Below, one piece after another: positions 24,575 through 29,184 of a stretch of 64,000 bases of DNA; within the stretch, counting starts at the first letter, position 1, and each line of letters opens with the position of its first letter. A program made the translations under genes and the position numbers. This DNA comes from Paenibacillus sp. FSL R7-0273 (GTDB lineage Bacteria > Bacillota > Bacilli > Paenibacillales > Paenibacillaceae): NCBI RefSeq assembly GCF_000758625.1, contig NZ_CP009283.1:6583501-6647500 (forward strand), given 5' to 3'. Below the pieces are notes generated by a model. That model was given only the letters and a program-made list of their open reading frames with translations, ran no database searches and was not told the origin of the DNA.

Positions 24575-25924
24575 TTAAAGATTATCGGTAGCCGACTTAA
24601 AATACTCCGCCGATGCGGCACTTTGCGCCGTTGTTGAGCCAATTCCTTCTATTGTCTGTATTAATACCTTGATCTCTTCTTCCACTACTACGATTTCCTG
24701 TGTGCTGGCCTGCATGGAATCAACAATTACACTGAACAATCTGCTGGTCTCGACAGACTGCTCTTTACCGCTCCTTGTCAGTTCCTGCACCTTACGGATC
24801 TCCTGAACTACCTGGCGGGTCAGCTCCGCTGATTGCTGTGTTAAGTCGCCTATCCGAACAACGGTGCTCTTGGTATCCTCAGCCAGCCGGCTGACTTCGC
24901 TCGCCACTACACTAAAGCCTCTGCCATGTTCGCCGGCGCGCGCTGCTTCTATTGTAGCGTTAAGTGAAAGAATTTTGGTCTGGTCGGCGATTTCCTGCAC
25001 CGCTGCCACAATCCGCTGGATCTGCCTGGAGGAGCTGCTTAGCTCATTTACAGAGCGTTCCATCTCATTAGTGCTCTCATAAATAAGGTTGATCTGGCCG
25101 CTTAGGCTGCCGAGCTGTCCTTGTCCATCCTTAGCCATCTCACGAGACTCTACAGCTGTAGAAGCCGTGCGGCGGAAGGTATTATTCACTTCATTGCTGC
25201 TGGCTACCAGCTGCTCTACAGCGGCGTTAGTATCCATGCTGAGATCAATCAGTTCTCCGCTGAATTCAGCAATCTTCTGCTTCAGTTCATTTTTTACAAT
25301 AAGGTATTGCTCTTCCTTCTCTCTGATGTTCTCTTTCTCATAGGCTTCAAGCACCAGCTGCTGCTCCAGATTGAGAAGCTTTGTTAGGGTCTGAACCACT
25401 TTCAGCCGCTCATTATCCTTAAGACTCTCACCATAGACTACTGTAATAAAAACATTCTGAAGATTCTGGAATGCCGACAGATACCATTTAGGCTCTAGTC
25501 CCACCCGCTTATGGATCTTGGCTATCGTCAGCCGCTTGGCAATATACTGTTCGTCCACATTTCCGTCGAATATCTCAATAATATGCAGCTTTAATGTTCT
25601 TTTCAGTCGCTCAATGCTGCTATGCTCAAGTATGATCCTCTCAAGCTTATCTACACCGAGTACAGTATTGTAGAACTGGTCGGTAATGTAGTCGATTTCA
25701 CGTTCCACCGTAGGCTTCATCAAGCGTAAAAGGTTTAAATCTTCCTCAGTAAGGTCAATCATTCGCATCTGTTCGTTCAGCTCATCATGCCCGTTCAGGG
25801 TATGAAAAGCTGTCGTGGCAATGGGTGCATTAAGCTCGCTGTCCTTGGAGTGCGCGTCGGGAGATTCCTCGTTAGTCTTGCGTAATTGAATGCCATGCAT
25901 AAATGAAAAAGGACACTTCCCCAT
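24575..25924 (-). CDS. hemAT: HemAT-type globin-coupled methyl-accepting chemotaxis protein
   Basis: 449 residues, no membrane segment, so a soluble sensor. Residues about 50-215 form a globin domain; [17 protein letters not shown] carries the expected proximal haem ligand His138. The C-terminal half is an MCP signalling coiled coil with the hairpin [34 protein letters not shown] (written in parts: [18 protein letters not shown], then [17 protein letters not shown]). HemAT binds oxygen and drives aerotaxis through CheA/CheW. The first 40 residues are a low-complexity extension with Cys4. It lies beside an FNR-type regulator. Ligand specificity cannot be read from sequence. Confidence 0.9.
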
Positions 25925-26143: not shown

Positions 26144-26857
26144 CTAGCTGGTGATTTCAGCAATCTGCGATAGTGCTAATAGATCCAAAATGGTTACGCT
26201 CCGGTTGTTTACTTGAATTAGCTTCATCCGCTCGAGCTGGTTCAGCTTACGGCTGAGTGTTTCAGGCGTCGTACCGATCATCGCTGCGAACTCTTTTTTG
26301 GCAGCCGGCAGATGAAGCATTGGTTGCCCCTCTCCCCCGCCTGTCGACAGTGATTGTTTGGCATATAGATGCAGCAGCAGCCGGGCCAGCCGTTTTTCCG
26401 CCTCAAAAATATGCAGTGCTCCTGCCAGCTCATCGGCCTGCTGCAGCTGCTCACTAACGGACTTCAGGAAGCTGAAGGCCAGGCCGGCATTACTTGCTAT
26501 CAAAGGCATAAAATCTTCACGCCGCATCCGGCAAATATATCCGCTTTCCACCACTTCGGCTGTAGCGTAATGCTGTTTATTATGAAGCAGGGCAAACTGG
26601 CCAAAGTAATCTCCAGGAAAAAGAAAACGGAGTATATGCTGCTTCCCCTCTATGCTGGTCTGGGTTAGCTTTATCAGCCCATTATTGACAACAAATAAGG
26701 AGTCTGACTGCTCTCCTTCTCTGAACACCACGTTTCCTTTTCCATAGAACTCAGACTCAATGATCGACTCTACCTTATGCAGCTCCTGATCAGGCAAAGC
26801 AACAAAAACCGGTACCTGACGGACACAGGAGTCCTTATGGCATGTATTACATTTCAT
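26144..26857 (-). CDS. Crp/Fnr family transcriptional regulator with FNR-like cysteines
   Basis: 237 residues. N-terminal cysteines C3, C6, C11 (MKCNTCHKDSC) and a central C109 (SGYICRM) align with C20, C23, C29 and C122 of E. coli FNR, suggesting an oxygen-labile 4Fe-4S cluster. Then a cyclic-nucleotide-binding fold (FREGEQSDSLFVVNNGLIKL, PGDYFGQFALL) and a C-terminal HTH whose recognition helix PETLSRKL keeps the E-x2-S-R of FNR that reads TTGAT half-sites. B. subtilis Fnr carries its cluster at the C-terminus, so this is a different arrangement. A perfect FNR box lies 90 nt upstream. SD AGGAAGGAACG precedes ATG. Confidence 0.88.
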   Translation of the reverse strand: MKCNTCHKDSCVRQVPVFVALPDQELHKVESIIESEFYGKGNVVFREGEQSDSLFVVNNGLIKLTQTSIEGKQHILRFLFPGDYFGQFALLHNKQHYATAEVVESGYICRMRREDFMPLIASNAGLAFSFLKSVSEQLQQADELAGALHIFEAEKRLARLLLHLYAKQSLSTGGGEGQPMLHLPAAKKEFAAMIGTTPETLSRKLNQLERMKLIQVNNRSVTILDLLALSQIAEITS

Positions 26858-26882: not shown

Positions 26883-26911
26883 TTATGCCAACATATCAGG
26901 ATTATGCCAAC
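26883..26911. repeat. 10-bp exact direct repeats ahead of the FNR-type gene
   Basis: TTATGCCAAC occurs at 26883-26892 and 26902-26911, period 19 bp. On the minus strand each reads GTTGGCATAA, so the pair can serve as TTGGCA...CATAAG with 17-bp spacing, a weak promoter for the regulator gene, or as a binding-site pair. Confidence 0.4.
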
Positions 26912-26946
26912 TTCCCGGTGACCCCGCGCACAATAATCTTGAAAAC

Positions 26947-26960
26947 TTGATCTGTATCAA
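26947..26960. promoter_or_regulatory. FNR box (perfect palindrome TTGAT-N4-ATCAA)
   Basis: TTGATCTGTATCAA is an exact match to the FNR consensus. Its centre (26953.5) is 41.5 bp upstream of the inferred start at 26995 for the plus-strand operon, the class II activation geometry. It is also about 60 bp from a possible start of the divergent regulator gene, so autoregulation is plausible. Confidence 0.85.
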
Positions 26961-26982
26961 GGATTATGCCGTTCCTTCGCTT

Positions 26983-26988
26983 CATAAT
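26983..26988 (+). promoter_or_regulatory. -10 element of the V4R-cupin operon promoter
   Basis: CATAAT with no recognisable -35, as expected for a promoter that depends on an activator. Start inferred at 26995. A ribosome site GGAGATGGACAGCT precedes ATG at 27023. Confidence 0.6.
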
Positions 26989-27022
26989 AGAGGTAGAGAG
27001 ATGATAGAGGAGATGGACAGCT

Positions 27023-27472
27023 ATGCAGCAGTATACTTTTGGAGATATGCGGAAGATGGACAGAGCCAGGCTTGGCAATATGGTGCCGCTGGAGCTGTTC
27101 CGTACGATAAGACTGATTGGCATGAACCAGGGTCTACCTATGGGCGGTAAAGGTACAACGCTAACTGTAGGAAGAAAAATCGGTGAGAGCCTTCCGGTTA
27201 CTAGTGTGGATGAGCTGCTGGCACTTTTTGAGGAGCTGAAAATCGGTATTCCGCGGATTGTCTATTCGGATGAGCACAGGATGAATATTGCTGTTGAGGA
27301 TTGCTTCTGTAAAGGCCTGCCGACACTGGAAGAAGAGAAAATGATTTGTGATTTAGAAGGTGCCATCCTGGAGGGAGCGTTGACTAAACTGTTTGGCCGC
27401 AGGGTAAGCGTAAGAGAAATTAAGTGTAATGCCACCGGTGATGAGTATTGTGAGTATGAAGTAAAGCTGTAA
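27023..27472 (+). CDS. V4R-domain protein of unknown function
   Basis: 149 residues. The C-terminal half is a V4R (4-vinyl reductase) domain: EDCFCKGLP, MICDLEGAILEGALTKLFGRRVSVREI, and the closing KCNATGDEYCEYEV. All five cysteines (94, 96, 109, 135, 143) fall in this domain and could bind a metal. V4R domains are small-molecule or metal-binding modules related in fold to haem-NO-binding domains; none is catalytically defined alone. The N-terminal half (RARLGNMVPLELFRTIRLIGMNQGLP) resembles the part that precedes V4R in single-domain members. First gene of an FNR-box operon with a cupin, 37 nt apart. Confidence 0.8.
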   Translation: MQQYTFGDMRKMDRARLGNMVPLELFRTIRLIGMNQGLPMGGKGTTLTVGRKIGESLPVTSVDELLALFEELKIGIPRIVYSDEHRMNIAVEDCFCKGLPTLEEEKMICDLEGAILEGALTKLFGRRVSVREIKCNATGDEYCEYEVKL

Positions 27473-27509: not shown

Positions 27510-27851
27510 ATGGAAAAGAAAAATATTAGCGAAGCTATTCAACATCTGGAGGAGCGTTTTACGAAAAAGGTGCTGTTTCAAAAGGGAGACAGTATAGTGT
27601 TCGTGCTTAATTTTATGCCAGGTCAAAAGCTTCCGGCGCACACTCATCCCGGAGCAGATGTGTACATTTATGCTCTCCAAGGAAAGGGCACCATTACTGT
27701 AAATGATGCTGACGAGGAATTTGCTGAGGGTGAAGTTATCCACATTGCGGATGATGAGGTTTTTGCTTATCGTAACAGCGGAACCACTCCGGCCAGTCTC
27801 CATGTTGTAATATCAAAGCTTCCGAGCGCAGCATACGCTAAAGAAATTTAA
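27510..27851 (+). CDS. Cupin-2 domain protein of unknown function
   Basis: 113 residues, a single beta-barrel. Motif 1 is PGQKLPAHTHPGADVYIYALQGKG with H44 and H46 of the HxH pair and Asp50 in place of the usual Glu. Motif 2, GEVIHIADDEVFAYRNSG, has Phe where the third His is normal, so the metal site is atypical. Good site AAAGCAGGAGATTACT before ATG. Second gene of the V4R operon and followed by a terminator. Function unknown; could sense a ligand, act as a dioxygenase-like protein or simply be structural. Confidence 0.85.
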   Translation: MEKKNISEAIQHLEERFTKKVLFQKGDSIVFVLNFMPGQKLPAHTHPGADVYIYALQGKGTITVNDADEEFAEGEVIHIADDEVFAYRNSGTTPASLHVVISKLPSAAYAKEI

Positions 27852-27873
27852 ATATCGCTATAACCCGGATGTA

Positions 27874-27916
27874 AACTCTATCTGCAGGAGAACTCTCCTG
27901 TGGATAGGGTTTTTGT
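27874..27916 (+). terminator. Terminator of the V4R-cupin operon
   Basis: ACTCTATC-TG-CAGGAG, loop AACT, CTCCTG-TG-GATAGGGT followed by TTTTTG. Strong stem with one G-T pair. Confidence 0.9.
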
Positions 27917-27993: not shown

Positions 27994-29184
27994 TTACTTA
28001 GTGATTGTAGCTACGCTACCTGCACCAACTGTACGTCCGCCTTCACGAATGGAGAATTTAGTACCTTCTTCAATCGCGATTGGGGAGATCAGTTGTACGG
28101 TTACAGTGATGTTATCACCAGGCATAACCATTTCAGTACCTTCTGGCAGGTTGATGATACCAGTTACGTCAGTTGTACGGAAGTAGAACTGTGGACGGTA
28201 ACCAGTGAAGAATGGTTTGTGACGTCCGCCTTCTTCTTTAGTCAGAACGTAGATCTGAGCACTGAACTCAGTGTGTGGCTTAACGGAGTTTGGCTTAGCC
28301 AATACTTGACCGCGCTCGATGTTGTTACGGTCAACACCACGCAGCAGTGCGCCGATGTTGTCGCCAGCTTGAGCGGAATCCAGCAATTTACGGAACATTT
28401 CTACGCCCGTTACTACTGATTTCTTAGTTTCTTCGTGAATACCAACGATTTCGATTTCTTCTCCGACTTTAACTGTTCCGCGTTCTACGCGGCCAGTTGC
28501 CACGGTACCGCGGCCAGTGATGGAGAATACGTCCTCGACAGGCATCAAGAAAGGCTTGTCAGTTGCACGTTCTGGAAGTGGGATGTAAGTGTCGATAGTT
28601 TCGAACATTTCAACAATCTTGTTAGCCCACTCACCTTCAGGGTTCTGCAGAGCTTCACGAGCAGAACCACGAACGATTGGAGTGTCATCGCCTGGGAAGT
28701 CGTATTCGCTCAGAAGGTCGCGAACTTCCATTTCAACCAGTTCCAAGAGCTCTTCGTCTTCAACCATGTCGCATTTGTTCAGGAATACAACAATGTAAGG
28801 AACGCCTACCTGACGGGAGAGCAGGATGTGCTCGCGAGTCTGTGGCATTGGGCCGTCAGCTGCGGATACAACCAGGATTGCTCCGTCCATCTGCGCTGCG
28901 CCAGTGATCATGTTTTTAACATAGTCGGCGTGTCCAGGGCAGTCTACGTGTGCGTAGTGACGGTTAGGAGTTTCATATTCAACGTGAGCTGTGGAGATAG
29001 TGATACCACGTTCGCGCTCTTCTGGAGCTTTATCGATTTGGTCGAAAGCTACAGCAGCACCGCCGTATTTTTTGGACAATACAATAGTGATTGCTGCAGT
29101 AAGAGTCGTTTTACCATGGTCGACGTGACCGATAGTACCGATGTTAACGTGTGGTTTGTTACGTTCAAACTTTGCCTTTGCCAT
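27994..29184 (-). CDS. tuf: Elongation factor Tu
   Basis: 396 residues. G1 GHVDHGKT, G2 RGITI, G3 DCPGH, G4 NKCD, G5 SAREAL region; C-terminal barrels end [11 protein letters not shown]. Delivers aminoacyl-tRNA to the ribosome. Last gene of the rplGB-rpsL-rpsG-fusA-tuf operon; AGGAGGAACTGTTCAA precedes ATG. Confidence 0.99.

Follow-up and report, generated by a model that had tools for sequence, protein, structure and literature searches.

A conserved class II FNR-type promoter precedes the V4R-cupin operon of Paenibacillus sp. FSL R7-0273 and, as a sequence feature, is close to certain. In the same 165-bp region, pointing the other way, lies a predicted second such promoter, that of the regulator gene fnr, and we regard as the better-supported reading a two-step cascade in which a general FNR would activate a dedicated FNR, which in turn would activate V4R-cupin, with the operator of the target having been swapped along the way. 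The analysis started from a 64,000-nucleotide stretch of DNA (the window) of this genome (7.29 Mb, single contig) and was extended to related genomes of the genus and family.

Organization of the fnr–V4R locus

The initial annotation had placed an FNR-type regulator gene next to, and divergent from, the V4R-cupin operon, and fnr indeed lies there on the minus strand, separated from the V4R gene by 165 nt. The features of the locus are as follows.

26144..26857, minus strand: fnr, Crp/Fnr-family regulator of 237 aa with Cys 3, 6, 11 and 109 and recognition helix PETLSR
26890..26895, minus strand: -10 hexamer TATGTT of the predicted fnr promoter, with the predicted fnr +1 at 26883
26918..26931, minus strand: putative second operator GTGCGCGGGGTCAC, Bacillus-FNR type TGTGA-N6-TCACA, centred at 26924.5, which is -41.5 of the predicted fnr start
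26947..26960, plus strand: FNR box TTGATCTGTATCAA, the putative operator of the V4R-cupin promoter, centred at 26953.5, which is -41.5 of the predicted +1
26961..26962, plus strand: invariant GG abutting the box (-34, -33), in 42/42 genus loci and 11/11 other-genus loci with adjacent fnr
26983..26988, plus strand: -10 hexamer CATAAT of the V4R-cupin promoter, with a predicted +1 at 26995
27023..27472, plus strand: V4R-domain protein gene, 149 aa, Pfam PF02830, with invariant Cys 94, 96, 109, 135 and 143
27510..27851, plus strand: cupin gene, 113 aa, Pfam PF07883, second gene of the operon
27873..27912, plus strand: intrinsic-terminator-like hairpin at the operon end (terminator-like sites 2 vs 1.8 expected by chance)

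The cupin gene lies 3' of the V4R gene in all 42 genus loci that carry fnr.

The V4R-cupin promoter

The reading of 26947-26960 as a full FNR palindrome was upheld, and this is the sole zero-mismatch TTGATNNNNATCAA in the window. Sites with up to two mismatches number 44 in the window vs 35.9 expected, so degenerate boxes carry no meaning. Genome-wide, the 12 perfect TTGATNNNNATCAA sites (2 in the reversed control) are near the ~7 expected from 4^10 for ten fixed bases, and it is thus the placement of the box, rather than the box by itself, that is notable; mononucleotide shuffling of the intergenic region produced a perfect box in 5 of 20,000 trials.

A gap of 22 nt separates the box from CATAAT, and the previously assigned -41.5 geometry holds if transcription starts at the predicted position 26995, which would leave a leader of 28 nt. 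The absence of a recognisable -35 element was likewise confirmed, TTGACA being matched at 1-3 of 6 positions there in all 42 loci. Conservation of the box in related genomes, which had been suggested as a check, extends to every genus locus with fnr (39 perfect boxes and three with one mismatch, hence all at least 9 of 10) and to 53/53 loci when 11 from another genus are added. The hexamer located 22 nt past the box fits NANNNT in 42/42 genus loci and in 10/11 loci of the other genus. Most of the bases that separate box and -10 are not conserved across the 42 genus loci, so the conservation of box, GG and -10 reflects more than mere relatedness.

The divergent regulator

With presence defined as a match at E <= 1e-40, fnr was found in 42 of 100 genus genomes. 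Its four cysteines are kept almost throughout the 42 proteins (C3 in 41/42; C6, C11 and C109 each in 42/42). The cluster of E. coli FNR is held by four cysteines, three N-terminal plus C122, and a recognition helix of the E-x-x-S-R type reads TTGAT half-sites; Fnr possesses both the four-cysteine set and the E-x-x-S-R helix. When the protein is aligned to its E. coli counterpart (NC_000913.3), C109 pairs with C122, and PETLSR with VETISR, the two helices sharing E-T-x-S-R. The N-terminal spacing is C-x2-C-x4-C here vs C-x2-C-x5-C in E. coli, and MAFFT, unlike the match made by eye, did not pair these cysteines one-to-one, so their equivalence is deduced from the pattern. Against the curated Fnr subfamily model (NF008365, PRK11161) the protein scores 82.6 bits vs a cut-off of 228, and it is therefore termed FNR-like, outside that subfamily. 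A search of the genome for Crp/Fnr paralogues returned six matches, the query included. The divergent Fnr likely uses the box at the V4R-cupin promoter.

A putative second operator and the predicted fnr promoter

The earlier interpretation of a class II FNR-type promoter with a divergent regulator stands but was incomplete, for it missed the apparent operator of fnr itself. In the window this second operator matches 7 of 8 core positions (GTGC for GTGA). Between box and fnr, a site of the GTGA-N6-TCAC type is present in 42/42 genus loci, at 8 of 8 positions in 19 and 7 of 8 in 23, and is followed by TANNNT exactly 22 nt further on in 41/42 (21 nt in L037). Shuffled versions of the same stretches score at least 7 of 8 in 200 of 8400 cases, and shuffling the window's intergenic region gave such a site together with TANNNT 22 nt away in 42 of 20,000 trials.

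The centres of the two operators are 28-32 bp apart (29 in 29/42); that this distance varies speaks against a joint complex of fixed geometry. Each operator is predicted at -41.5 of its own promoter and at -70.5 of the opposite one. The 165-bp region would hold a pair of class II Crp/Fnr promoters that point away from each other, a view that belongs to the two-step explanation and that we consider fairly probable. Since the second operator seems to control fnr, the oxygen signal probably enters through the cascade.

Operators across V4R loci

V4R matches were obtained in 60 of 100 genus genomes, and 56 of these matches span 127 or more of the 149 residues. At family level, a threshold of E <= 1e-20 gave matches in 80 of 295 genomes. 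The comparison set comprised 102 V4R loci (42 + 16 from the genus, 44 from other genera); two genus fragments (L074, L077) and partial other-genus matches (G350, G312, G305, G208, G319, G217) were omitted. Loci L075 and L076, with fnr and box but a broken V4R gene, were counted for the promoter only, and the search window of L076 was widened by hand because its V4R start is lost.

Where a divergent fnr adjoins V4R (53 loci), a TTGAT box (9-10 of 10) is accompanied without exception by a TGTGA box (7-8 of 8). In the other 49 loci, which lack an adjacent fnr, a TTGAT site falls within 260 nt in 10 and a TGTGA site within 450 nt in 40, and four loci (L070, L072, L145, L156) have neither within the searched range; L145 carries a TGTGA box at -503 and so was scored as a miss within the 40/49. 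The difference for TTGAT (53/53 vs 10/49) gives a Fisher p of 3e-19, in which related genomes are not independent. In random 300-nt windows from the fetched loci, 851 of 5000 reach at least 7 of 8 for TGTGA (238 of these 8 of 8), so that single fnr-less loci prove little; many of these loci also have a -10 element 21-22 nt past the TGTGA box. V4R genes without adjacent fnr thus mostly carry a TGTGA box, and fnr therefore looks as though it was inserted between a general anaerobic regulator and its old target, with the operator exchanged.

The arrangement recurs in g18, a group of 11 loci in one other genus, where Fnr is only 42-45% identical; box and GG are found in 11/11 and the 22-nt hexamer in 10/11, and in 10/11 fnr is preceded by a TGTGA site that has TANNNT 22 nt beyond it. 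Four g7 genomes have the TTGAT box with no adjacent fnr and encode elsewhere an Fnr that is 39-42% identical and has the PETLSR helix. No good TGTGA site was found upstream of these trans fnr genes in the four genomes, so activation of fnr through TGTGA would not be universal. The Fnr proteins of g7 and g18 have other N-terminal cysteine sets, some of them smaller. Three further loci (L154, L157, L164) have a TTGAT box without adjacent fnr, and the best Fnr match elsewhere is 30% identical with helix RETISR; L062 and L063 have 9-of-10 TTGAT sites without fnr.

In a tree of 98 distinct V4R proteins, the loci labelled as having a TTGAT box group into two clades with good support (99/95 and 100/99), with L139 apart, and the starred branches require at least 2-3 label changes. 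For this labelling, L070, L072, L145 and L156 were set to 'direct' despite having no box in range, as were L062 and L063 despite a distant TTGAT site, and L075 and L076 are absent. As the tree is unrooted, it would fit either two gains or ancestral presence followed by losses. Our tentative proposal, which we would put at somewhat below an even chance, is that two oxygen sensors differing in cluster architecture and DNA specificity are connected in series via mirror-image class II promoters, the V4R operator having changed from TGTGA to TTGAT upon insertion of the second FNR in two separate clades of the V4R tree.

The operator upstream of V4R in L139, TTGATCTCTATCAC, is a hybrid that joins an FNR-type half to a TGTGA-type half, and TATAAT follows it at 22 nt. 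If intercalation proceeded by operator swap, this hybrid is a possible intermediate.

Two variant arrangements were also observed. In L058, L060 and L061, a small ferredoxin-like gene (CxACG motif, by eye) precedes V4R, with an 8-of-8 TGTGA-type box before the pair; these are among the fnr-less loci in which a -10 element follows the box at 21-22 nt. In L075 (G001) and L076 (G048), stops break V4R; fnr, the FNR box, the TGTGA box and both -10 elements are still present.

The candidate reader of the TGTGA site and the proposed cascade

The pattern TGTGANNNNNNTCACA (TGTGA-N6-TCACA) is the Bacillus FNR consensus, as given in PMC8151001. In class II configuration it occurs in 28 rows in the genome (about 21 distinct places by count) vs 1 in the control. 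Six downstream products were tested, of which four match AdhE, NirB, a formate/nitrite transporter (fnt) and cytochrome bd subunit I (cydA), the adhE-like frame being truncated by the locus end and the cydA-like match lying under the family cut-off; the remaining two, a SagB-type protein and a dihydroorotate dehydrogenase electron-transfer subunit, are not obviously anaerobic.

The best candidate reader of the site, judged by motif, is P0004, a Crp/Fnr protein whose C-terminus, ICHCEMCPNEICRI, contains a cysteine cluster in the window genome. The ligand pattern of Bacillus Fnr is C-x2-C-x4-C, also in a C-terminal cluster (PMC3520743, in the part cited). P0004 has a match at E <= 1e-40 in 100/100 genus genomes, and its recognition helix is RESVNR, vs PETLSR in Fnr.

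In the first step of the mechanism that we propose, a drop in oxygen would lead P0004, or another TGTGA-reading Crp/Fnr protein, to bind 26918-26931 and activate fnr. In the second, for which conservation offers good support, Fnr with its N-terminal cysteine set would bind TTGAT-N4-ATCAA at -41.5 and activate V4R-cupin. The outcome would be a second oxygen checkpoint on V4R-cupin, either sharper or slower.

Alternative explanations

A simpler, though rather improbable, reading has a single step, with Fnr activating V4R-cupin and the TGTGA site being read by a protein not tied to oxygen, such as another Crp/Fnr paralogue, or serving only to fine-tune fnr. It draws on the same class II box evidence, and both the imperfect TGTGA site of the window (7 of 8) and the other Crp/Fnr paralogues of the genome suit it; however, the TGTGA motif agrees with the Bacillus FNR consensus and, in class II position, lies in front of genes of this genome that resemble adhE, nirB, fnt and cydA.

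The TGTGA site could instead be an operator of Rex, an NADH-sensing repressor, in which case a high NADH ratio would de-repress fnr. The sequence recognised by S. aureus Rex, TTGTGAAW4TTCACAA, includes TGTGA-N6-TCACA (PMC2883068, as excerpted), and some TGTGA matches in the genome, for example that before the adhE-like gene, carry the Rex-like A and T. At V4R loci, however, A and T occupy the first and last N in 0 of 93 scored boxes, on which ground Rex was rejected for these boxes, and a distance of exactly 22 nt to the -10 is what an activator calls for, whereas a repressor would not need it; we hold this reading to be very unlikely.

It is similarly hard to credit that the TTGAT box is read not by the adjacent fnr product but by another regulator, either P0004 or an L043-type paralogue. 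The three loci L154, L157 and L164, where the box occurs and a PETLSR-type Fnr was not found, would fit such a reader; against it stand the co-occurrence of box and adjacent fnr in 53/53 loci, the PETLSR Fnr encoded in trans in four g7 genomes, and the RESVNR helix of P0004. Finally, the sigma-70-like match TTGAAA-N17-GATTAT that spans the box in the window might make the box a repressor site, a geometry that was rejected as scarcely plausible because a similar promoter exists in 1/42 loci vs a class II -10 in 42/42.

The search for further Fnr targets

Under the favoured two-step cascade, Fnr looks dedicated to the V4R-cupin promoter, as other convincing targets were not found in the genome. 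The pattern TTGA-N6-TCAA with HANAAT 21-23 nt downstream has one match there, the V4R promoter itself (control 2). Across the genus it is present in 98/100 genomes, with 237 rows in the 42 fnr genomes (5.6 each) vs 374 in the 58 without fnr (6.4 each); such matches are no commoner where fnr is present, which fits a single target, beside which degenerate ones may exist. Of the 11 other perfect TTGATNNNNATCAA sites in the genome, none matches TATAAT at more than 3 of 6 positions 21-23 nt away on either strand, and eight sit in stop-to-stop frames of at least 110 codons.

A looser pattern, TTGAYNNNNRTCAA-N21-23-HANNAT, yielded six genome rows vs 0 in the control. The five besides the V4R promoter were rejected as Fnr targets, four lying inside long frames and one being the tip of a hairpin (L080) in a conserved, RNA-like intergenic stretch. 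Summed over the 42 fnr genomes, the looser pattern gives 200 rows vs 27 control rows, so further Fnr targets may exist. Among the rows listed (30 genomes fully and G085 partly, by eye), no other site recurs like the V4R site; the L080 hairpin recurs in about eight, and some other sites look coding.

Two further elements came to light in these searches. One is a palindrome, TTGACTTAAGTCAA, that recurs with TACAAT 22 nt beyond it in several genus genomes, with and without fnr (for example G006:C10:71899, G029:C2:492509, G014:C20:16988). The L080 stretch (L080:1975-2430, minus strand, corresponding to G000:C1 about 2957860-2958320, outside the window) is an intergenic region of ~450 nt and a candidate unlisted non-coding RNA that matches no Rfam family even at E <= 1. 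It is 88-89% identical over about 395 nt in L189, L195 and L197, and its end, on the minus strand, is a long hairpin, after which the sequence is rich in T.

Comparison with known systems

FNR-family cascades are already known, the ANR-DNR system of Pseudomonas being a like case. What would be new here, if the cascade reading, which we think moderately probable, is right, is the serial arrangement of two FNR architectures that each read a different operator, together with a dedicated second tier. In Dinoroseobacter shibae, the FnrL-Dnr cascade likewise has one FNR-family regulator turning on the gene of another, and the Fnr/Dnr site quoted in the part of PMC5398030 cited here is of the TTGAT-N4-ATCAA type, whereas in Paenibacillus each tier would read an operator of its own, and the lower one would have a dedicated target.

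The second tier resembles E. coli FNR at its class II promoters (narG, nirB, dmsA), with which it has in common TTGAT-N4-ATCAA, here at a predicted -41.5, a cysteine at the C122 position and the E-T-x-S-R helix; 19 of 23 directly activated E. coli FNR promoters with a known start have their site at -41.5 +/-4 (PMC3688515, as excerpted). Unlike E. coli FNR with its global regulon, Fnr here apparently has one target promoter and an N-terminal C-x2-C-x4-C, and it occurs in Paenibacillaceae, a family with a Bacillus-type general FNR. The first tier resembles Fnr of Bacillus subtilis and B. cereus, P0004 having a like C-terminal cysteine cluster (PMC3520743) and TGTGA-N6-TCACA, which the putative second operator fits at 7 of 8 core positions in the window, being their consensus (PMC8151001), as far as the cited parts of these sources extend; unlike in Bacillus, the general FNR would here stand above a second FNR of other architecture and DNA specificity. 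An fnr of Paenibacillus is 6.84-fold up in nitrogen-fixing culture without oxygen, the excerpted text leaving unnamed which fnr this is (PMC4774088). No paper on the fnr–V4R pair was found in the literature on Paenibacillus Fnr and V4R, with subscription journals mostly outside coverage.

If true, the proposal offers a compact and testable case in which a bacterial network has gained an additional oxygen sensor, placed between a global regulator and an old target, and an example from nature of regulatory intercalation through a swap of operators in two clades of the V4R tree. It would also provide an N-terminal-cysteine FNR devoted to one promoter in Gram-positives that already have a Bacillus-type FNR, and would tie an uncharacterised V4R protein to low oxygen.

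The probable V4R-cupin target and neighbouring genes

The five cysteines of the V4R protein (94, 96, 109, 135, 143) are invariant in 56/56 aligned genus proteins, from which we would guess that V4R-cupin possibly has a redox- or metal-linked role. A fold model of moderate quality (pLDDT 72, 10 sequences) matches MJ1460, YslB, the V4R domains of the phenol sensors PoxR and MopR, and TRAPP Bet3; assignment of a function from these matches was rejected, as the model is moderate and the matches do not decide function. MJ1460 is the sole PDB sequence match as well as the top fold match.

A V4R domain with conserved cysteines is shared with MJ1460 and with MsvR, a methanogen V4R regulator in which the V4R cysteines affect redox-dependent DNA binding, according to the portion of PMC3729527 cited. 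MsvR combines an N-terminal DNA-binding domain with V4R, whereas the protein described here has no DNA-binding domain, consists of V4R only in its 149 aa, and scores 51 bits against the MsvR cut-off of 220.

As regards the surroundings of the locus, the window block is flanked by an EF-Tu-like gene (27994-29184, by-eye reading) and an S10 gene. A protoglobin-MCP gene, encoding a HemAT-like oxygen chemoreceptor (24575-25924, minus strand), adjoins fnr, and the gene order globin receptor - fnr - V4R - cupin is found in 11/11 named Paenibacillus loci.
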